This document shows, one piece after another, positions 13,765-16,949 of a stretch of DNA of 37,264 nucleotides. The translations under genes were made by a program, and so were the position numbers. The first letter of the stretch is position 1, and each line of letters opens with the position of its first letter. Source of the DNA: Alphaproteobacteria bacterium (lineage in GTDB: Bacteria > Pseudomonadota > Alphaproteobacteria > Micropepsales > Micropepsaceae); the NCBI GenBank assembly GCA_013697055.1, contig JACCXK010000133.1, positions 1-37,264 of the forward strand. Direction: 5' to 3'. The notes beneath the pieces were generated by a model, which had not been told where the DNA came from, ran no database searches, and was given only the letters and a program-made list of their open reading frames with translations.

Positions 13765-13859
13765 GGTGATGAGGGGGAGAATCTCGCACCATTCCGCGGC
13801 CCTGCCGCGCGAAAAGGCAGGGATGACAAGGTTTTTTGGAGCCGTTACAAACTAACCCC

Positions 13860-16514
13860 ATGAAAAGCCTTTCCGACGTCCGCACCGGATTCCTCGATTT
13901 CTTCGCAAGCCGCGGCCACACCGTGGTCCCGTCCTCGCCGCTGGTGCCGCGCAACGACCCCACCCTGCTGTTCACCAATGCGGGCATGGTCCAGTTCAAG
14001 AACCTGTTCACCGGCGCGGAAAAACGCCCCTACAGCCGCGCCACCACGGTGCAGAAATGCGTCCGCGCGGGCGGCAAGCACAACGACCTGGACAATGTCG
14101 GCTACACCGCCCGGCATCACACTTTCTTCGAGATGCTGGGCAACTTCTCGTTCGGCGATTACTTCAAGGAAGACGCCATCACCTTCGCCTGGGACTTCAT
14201 CACCAAGGTGGTGGGGCTCCCTGCGGACAAGCTGCTGATCACGGTCTATCCCACCGATGACGAGGCGCGCCGGCTTTGGAAGAAGATCGCCGGTTTCAGC
14301 GACGATCGCATTATCGGTCACGAGAGCAACCTGTGGGCGATGGGCCCCACCGGCCCTTGCGGCTTTTGCTCGGAAATCTTCTACGACCAGGGCCCCTCGG
14401 TGGCGGGCGGCCCGCCCGGTTCGCCGGACGAAGATGGCGACCGCTACCTGGAATTCTGGAACCTGGTCTTCATGCAGTTCGAGCAGGTGGACGAGAACAC
14501 CCGCCTGGATCTGCCCAAGCCCTCCATCGACACCGGCATGGGGCTGGAGCGCATCGCCGCCATCCTGCAGGGCGTTACCAACAACTACGATGTGGACCTG
14601 TTCCGCCATTTGATCGCAGCCTCGGAATCGGCCAGCGGGGTCGCCAGCAGCGGCGAAGCCACCTTCAGCCACCGCATCATTTCCGACCATCTGCGCGCCA
14701 CCTCCTTCCTGATCGCCGATGGCGTGCTACCCTCGAATGAAGGCCGCGGCTATGTGCTCCGCCGGATCATGCGTCGCGGCATGCGCCACGCGCATCTGCT
14801 GGGCACCAGGGATCCGTTGATGCACCGGCTGGTGCCGGCGCTGGTGGGCGAGATGGGCTCGGCCTATCCCGAACTCAAGCGCAGCGAGCCGTTGATCGCC
14901 GAAACCCTCAAGCTGGAAGAAATCCGCTTCCGCGAAACCCTGGCGCGGGGCCTCAAGCTCTTGGACGAAGCCACTATTGGCCTGAACAAGGGCGACCAGC
15001 TCAAGGGCGATGTCGCTTTCAAGCTCTATGACACCTACGGCTTTCCGCTGGACCTGACCGAGGAATCCCTGCGCGCGCGCGGCATCACCGTCGACACCGA
15101 CGGCTTTGCCGCGTCGATGCAGAAGCAGAAACAGGAAGCGCGCGCCTCCTGGACCGGCAATGCGGACGCCGCCAGTGAAGCCAAATGGTTCGCGGTGCTG
15201 GACGAAGTCGGCCGTACCGAATTCCTGGGCTATGACACCGAAGAAGCCGAAGGCGTGGTGCTCGCCATCTTCAAGGATGGCGGCCGGGTGATGGGCGCGT
15301 CCGCCGGCGAGGCAGTGGACATCGTCACCAACCAGACGCCCTTCTATGGCGAATCCGGCGGCCAGGCCGGCGACAGCGGCCATATCCAGTCCACCAAGGC
15401 CAAGGGGCAGGTCACCGACACCCAGAAAAAGCTGGGCGCGCTGCATGTCCATAGCGTGCGCCTCACCGAAGGCAGCATCGCGCCCGGCGATGCGGTCGAT
15501 CTGAAAGTGGATACCGAACGGCGCCGCGCCACCCGCGCCAATCACAGCGCCACCCATCTGCTGCATGCCGCGCTGAAGCGCGTGTTGGGAAACCATGTCA
15601 GCCAGAAGGGTTCGCTGGTGAATGCCGAGCGCCTGCGCTTCGACTTCTCGCATCCCAAGCCGGTATCGCCCGAGGAACTGGAACGCATCGAGGCGCAGGT
15701 GAACGCGGTGATCCGCCAGAACTCCGACACCTCCACCCGCCTGTTGCCCACCGACCAGGCCATCGCCGCGGGCGCCGAGGCGTTGTTCGGCGAGAAGTAT
15801 GGCGATGAAGTGCGTGTGCTGACCATGGGTTCTGACTTGGAGGCTTCGAAGGCTTTCTCGGTCGAACTGTGCGGCGGCACCCATGTCCATCGGTTGGGCG
15901 ATATCGGACTGTTCACCATCCTGGCGGAAAGCGCTGTCGCCGCCGGCGTGCGCCGTATCGAGGCGCTGACCAGCGAACATGCCCGCCGTTATCTGTCGGG
16001 CCAAGCCGAAATCGCCCGCGAGGCGGCCTTCGCCATCAAGACTCCCATCGGCGAACTTGCGGGCCGGGTGGCGCAGCTTTCGGAAGAACGCCGCAAGCTG
16101 GAACGCGAATTGGCCGAAGCCAAGAAGCAGCTCGCCTTGGCCGGCCCCGCCAAGAGCGGCGATGACGGCCAGGAAAGCATCGCGGGCCTGAAAGCCGTGC
16201 TGCGGCTGGTGGAAGGCGTGGCGCCCAAGGATCTCAAGAGCCTGGCCGACGGCGCCAAGGGCCAAGTCGGCAGCGGCGTGGTGGCGTTCGTCACTGCTGC
16301 GGACGGCAAGGTCTCCATCGTGGCCGGTGTCACCGAGGACCTGACATCGCGCATCAGCGCCGTGGACCTGGTTCGGGTGGCGGCGGAAGCCTTGGGCGGC
16401 AAAGGCGGCGGCGGCCGTCCTGACATGGCGCAGGCGGGCGGGCCGGACAATGGCAATCCGCAGCTCGCACTGGATGCCATTCGCAAGAAGCTGGGCGAGT
16501 TGGCTCCGGCTTAG
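13860..16514 (+). CDS. alaS: Alanyl-tRNA synthetase AlaS
   Basis: This 884-residue protein is read from the ATG at 13860; [20 protein letters not shown] is the standard AlaRS start. The N-terminal class II catalytic domain has [20 protein letters not shown] and [16 protein letters not shown]. The editing domain has the zinc-binding elements NHSATH (His562, His566) and CGGTH (Cys671, His675), which remove mischarged Ser and Gly. The C-terminal coiled coil and DHHA1 domain end at [20 protein letters not shown]. Full length. It follows recA, a gene order common in alphaproteobacteria, but a terminator lies between them. Confidence 0.99.
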
Positions 16515-16520
16515 CCCCAC

Positions 16521-16710
16521 CCTCTCCCCTGTGGGAGAGGACGCAAAATCTTGCGCTTGGCGAAGCGCAGCGAAGCCAAGTGCTTAGATTTTGCTAGGTG
16601 AGGGGTGCGTTTGTGCCCAACTCACCCCTAACCTGAAAAATCAACGGGTTGAGCGTCGCTATCGCGCCGCTAACCCGGTGATTTTTCTTCCTCTCCCACA
16701 AGGGGAGAGG
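16521..16710. repeat. MITE-like palindromic element after alaS
   Basis: The ends are CCTCTCCCCTGTGGGAGAGG (16521-16540) and, at 16690-16710, its reverse complement with a single extra A; each end is itself a hairpin. Inside are GCAAAATCT (16543-16551) with AGATTTTGC (16586-16594), enclosing CTTGGC with GCCAAG. A central arm pairs AGGTGAGGGGTG (16596-16607) with CACCCCTAACCT (16623-16634, one mismatch). A right arm pairs GAAAAATCA (16635-16643) with TGATTTTTC (16679-16687), enclosing GGGTT with AACCC. The whole is a roughly 190-bp mirror-organised element without coding capacity, like a miniature inverted-repeat element or compound REP. Confidence 0.75.
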
Positions 16711-16733: not shown

Positions 16734-16949
16734 CTAAGCAATAATATCCGGCAGCAGCCCGTTGTTGATCTCGGTGATTTCGTCTTTCAACTGAAGCTTG
16801 CGCTTCTTGAGCCGCGCCAGCGCCATCAGGTCGGTATTGCCCGTTTGCACCATGGCCTCGATGGCGGCGTCCAGGTCGCGATGTTCCTGCGTCAACTGGG
16901 TCAGCTTGGCGCGCGCGGCGACTTCATCGGGGCCGACAACACCGGTCAT
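16734..16949 (-). CDS. DUF465 / YdcH-family small protein
   Basis: This 71-residue helical protein has the YdcH (DUF465) signature: LTQEHRDLDAAIEAMVQ, then LARLKKRKLQLKDEITEI (about residues 46-63). The family forms short helical hairpins; its function is not established. The ATG overlaps the ubiX stop (ATGA), so it is co-translated with ubiX. A second DUF465-type gene lies on the other side of ubiX at 17727-17900, on the opposite strand. Confidence 0.82.
   Translation of the reverse strand: MTGVVGPDEVAARAKLTQLTQEHRDLDAAIEAMVQTGNTDLMALARLKKRKLQLKDEITEINNGLLPDIIA

Follow-up and report, generated by a model that had tools for sequence, protein, structure and literature searches.

The window, by which we mean the whole stretch of DNA that was analysed (37,264 nucleotides), contains behind alaS a gene-less palindromic element. 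It probably belongs, at a rough probability of 0.6, to a family of very small mobile elements carrying a DUF559 gene, as a non-autonomous miniature that the nuclease of this gene would mobilise in trans. That the DUF559 gene and the palindromes at its ends form one unit is well supported; gene and ends are inherited together, in many genomes and places, and they are therefore regarded as a mobile element. The role of the DUF559 nuclease as the enzyme that moves the element is read from the sequences and is proposed here as the likely one. A candidate DUF559-bearing parent for this repeat is new.

The preliminary description of the element had proposed a compound inverted repeat without coding sequence, with terminal arms of 20 and 21 bases that are inverted copies of each other and each a hairpin, and with three further inverted repeats inside. 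All these parts were found where it had placed them (Table 1). It had also called the element mirror-organised; the arms are indeed symmetric, but the symmetry is that of a reverse complement (the element and its reverse complement are 72% identical) and not that of a mirror. The terminal palindromes, T and T', each form a perfect 8-bp hairpin (CCTCTCCC/GGGAGAGG), with loops of 4 and 5. No ORF of at least 60 aa touches the element, and the five ORFs of at least 20 aa that overlap it code for 22 to 48 aa.

Table 1. Positions in the window of the element, its component palindromes and the two adjacent genes.
Feature	Position	Strand	Remarks
alaS	13836..16514	+	putative start; 3' end 6 bp before the element
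Whole ORF-less element	16521..16710	+	190 bp; order T-A-M-B-T'
Left terminal palindrome T (CCTCTCCCCTGTGGGAGAGG)	16521..16540	+	
Hairpin A (GCAAAATCT ... AGATTTTGC)	16543..16594	+	arms 16543-16551 / 16586-16594
Hairpin M (AGGTGAGGGG ... CCCCTAACCT)	16596..16634	+	arms 16596-16611 / 16619-16634; site of the DUF559 gene in ORF-bearing relatives
Hairpin B (GAAAAATCA ... TGATTTTTC)	16635..16687	+	arms 16635-16650 / 16672-16687
Right terminal palindrome T' (CCTCTCCCACAAGGGGAGAGG)	16690..16710	+	
DUF465-type gene (named in the preliminary description)	16734..16949	-	convergent; stop 23 bp past the element

The minimum free energy (MFE) fold of the element is a four-way cloverleaf, in which T pairs with T' over the full length as the outer stem and hairpins A, M and B stand on the junction; in the alternative, T and T' are each folded on themselves. 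The MFE is -122.5 kcal/mol; 200 dinucleotide shuffles average -61.9 (sd 4.6), and none of them reaches the value of the element (RNA z = -13.2).

The element is one of a dispersed family of repeats. Its own genome (G000; 3.77 Mb in 256 contigs, 97% complete) has seven full copies that are 86-93% identical to the copy in the window, which disposes of the objection that it might be present only once. A search of 100 genomes, i.e., its own, 59 others of the genus and 40 of the class, gave matches at E <= 0.001 in 28, of which 25 are among the 60 genomes of the genus; few candidates were scored per genome and copy numbers from this search are lower bounds. Altogether, 44 full ORF-less copies were gathered from nine genomes, each from a different species of the genus: 15 in G035, 7 each in G000 and G054, 4 each in G008 and G033, 2 each in G056, G007 and G049, and 1 in G031. 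By length, 29 are short (169-199 bp) and 15 long (230-241 bp). Two copies of G008 are chimeric and have a different B hairpin; in this genome, three elements, two full and one partial, lie within approx. 4 kb at locus L144 (G008:C8:1256-9372), and one of the three has a chimeric B hairpin.

The predicted folds of 37 copies are cloverleaf-like, with one clear exception by MFE (L158). With the two chimeric copies excluded, and with shuffles that ignore relatedness, the 27 short copies show standard pairs in 1790 of 1828 pair cells (shuffle mean 1736, maximum 1747) and two-sided changes at 12 of 68 pairs (shuffle mean 6.4, maximum 10). In the 15 long copies standard pairs fill 1044 of 1080 cells (shuffle mean 1024, maximum 1036), and the two-sided changes, at 10 of 72 pairs, do not go beyond the shuffles (mean 6.3, maximum 10). 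Covariation across copies therefore supports the stems of the cloverleaf and reveals that the fold of a single strand matters; RNA and single-stranded DNA are indistinguishable by it. The paired columns are 91% identical, versus 66% (short) and 48% (long) for the unpaired ones. The loops of T and T' are complementary in 18 of the 44 copies versus 9.3 after shuffling, a difference that shared ancestry can also produce.

Within G054 the apical loops of the long-class copies (L026, L167-L171) diverge strongly while the stems hardly do so. The apical loops of M have a similarity of 0.47 (0.41 shuffled) on near-invariant stems, and those of A and B reach 0.62 versus 0.45 and 0.49 shuffled, B being represented by 3 of 7 copies. 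This pattern would, at least in part, fit several old lineages with constrained stems and not the gene-less relics of recent bursts. Some copies do look old, judging from these loops and from at least one case of shared descent, in which a G054 copy (L171) corresponds to a degraded one in the same position in G033 (L228).

A comparison of the genes that flank the copies brought up a small gene that is itself flanked by palindromes. In the own genome (G000:C162:5413-5874) the order is T, a hairpin, GGGTGAGGGG, an ORF of 113 aa, CCCCTCATCC, a hairpin and T'. The encoded protein belongs to DUF559 (PF04480, E 6.5e-39), and a solved relative is 3hrl (E 7.4e-21), described as an 'Endonuclease-Like Protein'. 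The same architecture, with the DUF559 gene within the M hairpin, is present in G031, G002 and G019. Both flanks of the G002 gene match the window element (84% for query positions 1-87 and 76% for 1-85), and those of the G019 gene match ORF-less elements (88% over 106 bp, 83% over 77 bp); in both genomes the gene is surrounded by the modules of the window element itself. Since window-type modules flank DUF559 genes, M of the ORF-less element corresponds to the place of the gene, and the full-length form of approx. 430-720 bp can be written as T - A - M left arm - DUF559 gene - M right arm - B - T'. The window copy kept the ends and the hairpins and lost the gene, hence M closes on a short loop. 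With many dispersed non-coding copies, and terminal inverted repeats in common with a gene-bearing DUF559 parent, it has two of the features of a MITE; as its T, A, M and B modules are those of the DUF559-bearing copies, it is placed in a proposed class of DUF559 palindrome elements.

DUF559, a Vsr-like family, has been a predicted PD-(D/E)XK nuclease since 2005; for the E. coli member YcjD, this assignment and the similarity to Vsr are published (PMC1189080). In the literature that our search covered, outside of which lie most subscription papers, no link of DUF559 to mobile elements or to palindromic repeats was found.

The coupling of gene and palindromes was evaluated at 50 high-scoring DUF559 loci of the genus (30 automatically chosen and 20 chosen by hand, from 88 with E below 1e-20 among the matches listed) and at 20 low-scoring loci, hand-picked, one per genome. 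Pyrimidine-armed hairpins of the same type stand on both sides of the gene at 28 of the 50 high-scoring loci, at none of the 20 low-scoring ones, and at 2 of 1000 random windows taken from the same loci. Counted by side, 35 of the 50 have an upstream and 37 a downstream hairpin; one low-scoring locus has a downstream hairpin. These counts keep L249, L253, L254 and L258, where the domain coordinates are off by one base, and L235, which has an in-frame stop. Homology of the flanks to ORF-less elements over at least 30 bp was detected at 25/50 versus 0/20 loci; the best ORF-less match, within the subset of copies compared, comes from the same genome in 4 of these 25, all from G053. This genome has, as a second family, abundant ORF-less copies with ACCTCCCC ends (L210-L219), and it also carries DUF559 elements with identical ACCTCCCC ends. 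An active-site-like motif, D..ExDG..H, is present in 49 of the 50 high-scoring loci (in any frame of the locus). The low-scoring subfamily (L284-L303; in the own genome, G000:C71:5596-5883), with neither the motif nor two-sided palindromes at any of its 20 loci, is possibly domesticated.

Outside the genus, the best locus of each of 29 genomes was inspected, out of 93 genomes of the class with a match; both sides agree at 12 of the 29 and at least one hairpin is present at 26, versus 0 of 580 random windows. As a point against the DUF559 reading, the strict hairpin test fails at 22/50 loci of the genus, 17/29 of the class and 9/13 named records including E. coli, and it is passed by the other 4 of the 13, this set of records being drawn from Azospirillum, Shinella, Sphingomonas, Sinorhizobium, Deinococcus, Synechocystis, Methylobacterium and E. 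coli. In Sphingomonas parapaucimobilis the DUF559 gene with its palindromes lies between sufB and sufC. A score of inverted repeats between the two flanks was used initially; in 23 loci (7 of them motif-less) real pairs, from 7.5 to 37.5, were not clearly above swapped pairs (mean 10.5, maximum 31.5), because ends of the same type pair across loci and the ORF ends were misplaced, and the hairpin test was used instead. On this score, 6 of 12 named plasmid records exceed the 95% level of swapped pairs.

A tree of the nucleases (42 rows, L235, L253 and L312 excluded) requires 15 changes of end type versus a mean of 25.7 after shuffling, and none of 200 shuffles is as low. G008, G023, G028, G053 and G054 each have nucleases of two or three end types, which cluster by end type and not by genome; likewise, the nuclease of the own genome clusters (support 100/99) with the G002, G008, G023 and G031 nucleases, the ends being of the CCTCTCCC type in all of these. 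A strong DUF559 match is present in 21 of the 25 genomes with the window-type element versus 13 of the 35 others (Fisher p 0.0005); the Y1 transposase, another family searched, is present in 7/25 versus 11/35 (p 1.0), both comparisons being made regardless of genome size and kinship.

On the other hand, co-inheritance of nuclease and ends is also expected if the gene is cargo that something else moves. According to this explanation the T-A-M-B-T'/DUF559 unit is real, DUF559 is a passenger, retained as a nuclease for defence, repair or addiction, and a different enzyme, or template switching and recombination at hairpins, moves the palindromes. It agrees with a report on the Vsr-like DUF559 protein VsrA of Caulobacter, described there as a SOS-linked endonuclease of the mismatch-repair type that leads to DNA damage responses when a cytosine methylase is absent (PMC12907096). 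It also agrees with the position of most ORF-less copies, which are not near a DUF559 gene, and with G029, where seven element matches occur with no DUF559 match; in G036, G045 and G056 the DUF559 matches are low-scoring only. We nevertheless consider it rather unlikely, given that the gene sits in the same hairpin across independent end-type lineages and that nuclease and end type stay coupled on the tree. As for another mover, the transposase family searched, Y1, is absent from the own genome and its distribution is unlinked to that of the element, and mobilisation by RAYT/Y1 was rejected on these grounds.

The position of the element in the window was compared among relatives. By alaS, the record closest to the window among named ones is JAFKFF010000315.1, at 79% identity. 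Thirty alaS-DUF465 loci were inspected, nine of them without such a neighbourhood within the examined stretch; the neighbourhood is present in 20 relatives besides the own genome, and the element is at this place in none of the 20. It is thus a dispersed repeat and not a fixed RNA gene, and conservation of its position across relatives, named in the preliminary description as the sign of the contrary, is not what was found. The gaps of the relatives measure from 2 bp to 615 bp, often with other palindromic repeats, and their unrelated sequence yielded no base-exact empty site, a result that counts against a classical MITE. The gap (L115-L142) appears as a repeated landing place for palindromic repeats: REP-like dimers with ATTCCCGC stems in L122 and L124, CTTCGACAGGCTCAG repeats in L116 and L118, and another compound palindrome in L125 and L130; in L117, L120, L131 and L135 it is just 2-12 bp. 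In Brevundimonas bacteroides, which belongs to another family (L099, 5648-5817), a compound palindrome of the same plan lies directly 3' of alaS, with a CCTTCTCCC hairpin and GGATGAGGGG ... CCCCTCATCC.

Among the 44 copies, 21 lie between convergent genes, 18 between tandem genes and 1 between divergent genes, 2 are inside a called gene and 2 at a contig edge; most are within 25 bp of a stop codon, as determined with a purpose-built gene caller. This distribution, and the covariation of stems with variable loops, could be taken to indicate a structured RNA or DNA useful to the host at gene ends, such as an mRNA stabiliser, a terminator or a supercoiling site, domesticated from an old repeat. 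Such a role is improbable for this element: it is missing from all 20 syntenic relatives, Rfam gives no match at gathering threshold in the whole window, and insertions that avoid promoters yield the same gene context. The two alternatives of the preliminary description, a non-autonomous mobile element and a structured RNA, therefore fared differently. The mobile one stands, on the seven copies, the 44 copies in nine species, the lack of sharing among the 20 syntenic relatives and the modules homologous to nuclease-bearing versions; for the RNA the Rfam match was not found, and a fixed structured RNA or a regulatory site of alaS was rejected on the same synteny and Rfam results. The element is preceded by a pyrimidine (C or T) in 36/37 copies and followed by a purine (A or G) in 37/37; the 5' flank is T-rich (21-23/37 at -4 to -2) and the 3' flank A-rich (24/37 at +2, 19/37 at +3). 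This bias may reflect outer bases of the element or a preference for the target. A T-rich sequence before and an A-rich one after are, in base composition, the opposite of the tail of an intrinsic terminator, a candidate that was discarded.

No target-site duplication was detected in 37 ORF-less copies nor in 28 ORF-bearing elements. Exact direct repeats of 3-10 bp are absent at the 37 copies, one of 2 bp was present (0.26 shuffled), and the longest common words of the flanks amount to 115 versus 124.5 in shuffles. The element is therefore not filed as a classical DDE-type MITE; the lack of target duplications, for which the preliminary description had suggested looking, speaks against that class. 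Derivation from a DDE insertion sequence that shares its inverted repeats is very improbable, in spite of the inverted ends, the length of approx. 190 bp and the many gene-less copies, given the lack of duplications and that DUF559 is the sole gene met between such ends at the loci examined.

Mobilisation by the DUF559 nuclease could proceed as follows. The element would extrude as hairpins or as the cloverleaf in single-stranded DNA, e.g., on the lagging strand, the folded strand thus being DNA. The nuclease, supplied by any ORF-bearing copy, would recognise end palindromes with pyrimidine arms, provided that they are of its own type, and would cut there or close by. The element, released or copied, would then be inserted into a new break with no duplication of the target, and insertions would be tolerated mainly behind stop codons.

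Several known repeats resemble this family. REP/REPIN elements moved by RAYT share with it the pairs of inverted, hairpin-ended palindromes in many extragenic copies, no expected target duplication and a dedicated enzyme of the single-strand type (PMC3733652). They differ in that Y1_Tnp is absent from the own genome and present in 18/60 of the genus with no link to the window-type element, and in that the ends of the latter are pyrimidine-armed, with a DUF559 nuclease inside the element as the candidate enzyme; by eye, the GTAG tag of REPIN/RAYT is not seen beside T in the aligned copies. CGTC REPs of Alphaproteobacteria are reported to consist of two inverted palindromes separated by a structured spacer, to lie between convergent or tandem genes and to lack a dedicated transposase (PMC3733652). 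As in these, the left end is followed by GACG (CGTC on the other strand) in 30/44 copies; however, CGTC precedes T' in 0/44, the 8-9 bp stem of that report has A-T at positions 1-2 whereas the present one starts with C-C, and the internal hairpins are new.

The PIT/TM 'intrastrand triplex' repeats (TMECO) are built of the same CCCTC-NCCC palindromes with pyrimidine arms, frequently in inverted pairs (PMC4666352). The third strand of their triplex is absent from the ORF-less copies of the window family, 0/44 of which fit TMECO at <=2 mismatches. The authors of PMC4666352 report no association with mobile elements. TM-like motifs occur near DUF559 at 14 of the 29 class loci (a raw count with no random baseline) and also beside E. 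coli ycjD. RIME, Bru-RS and CIR are likewise intergenic palindromic repeats of approx. 100-200 bp with an unexplained mechanism of mobility (PMC2229807, PMC2573895, PMC2267715), RIME and Bru-RS being likened to the window family by description only. CIR is described in these sources with two arms and a linker, no pairing of the 5' and 3' ends and GANTC at the arm loop; in contrast, the ends of the window family pair around three inner hairpins, and GANTC is found in 12/44 copies and not in the window copy.

Homing endonucleases with a Vsr fold (EDxHD family, I-Bth0305I) are likewise small Vsr-like nucleases by which their own DNA is spread. Homing copies an allele into a matching site, whereas the window family has unrelated insertion sites and abundant ORF-less derivatives.

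Few features of bacterial genomes are as common as palindromic intergenic repeats, and for many families, CGTC REPs (PMC3733652) and CIR (PMC2229807) among them, the papers name no enzyme that spreads them. A nuclease gene in the central hairpin, co-inherited with matching ends in several lineages, is a concrete candidate that can be tested; it would explain how a common class of bacterial palindromic repeats is spread and would give DUF559 a role. More tentatively, and with somewhat less than even odds, Vsr-like DUF559 nucleases might be the mobilisers of a separate, widespread class of elements that have palindromic ends with pyrimidine arms, duplicate no target, carry the nuclease gene in the central hairpin's loop and give rise to numerous ORF-less miniatures. 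Several unexplained palindromic repeats of bacteria, among them the PIT/TM repeats of enterobacteria and alphaproteobacterial ones like the present family, would be miniatures or relics of this class, and the motif-less, single-copy DUF559 subfamily would be its domesticated offshoot.

In E. coli, at least 80% of the sapF-ycjD-fabI stretch is present in 3361 of 5426 genomes, and in genomes without ycjD another operon occupies the place (see also PMC12817139). A clean empty junction was not found at this stretch; the one deletion inspected ends inside ycjD. In strain KE47 (L316) the first of two TM 'triplex' repeats (1519-1553 and 1725-1759) overlaps the 3' end of ycjD and the second lies 200 bp further, a different palindrome is found to the left of the gene, and ycjD varies among strains. 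Lastly, DUF559 elements are located directly before a carB-like gene at L333, L334, L336 and L339, under three family codes, and directly before an alaS-like gene at L253 and L255, in two genomes (both genes named by eye); these spots are possible preferred sites.
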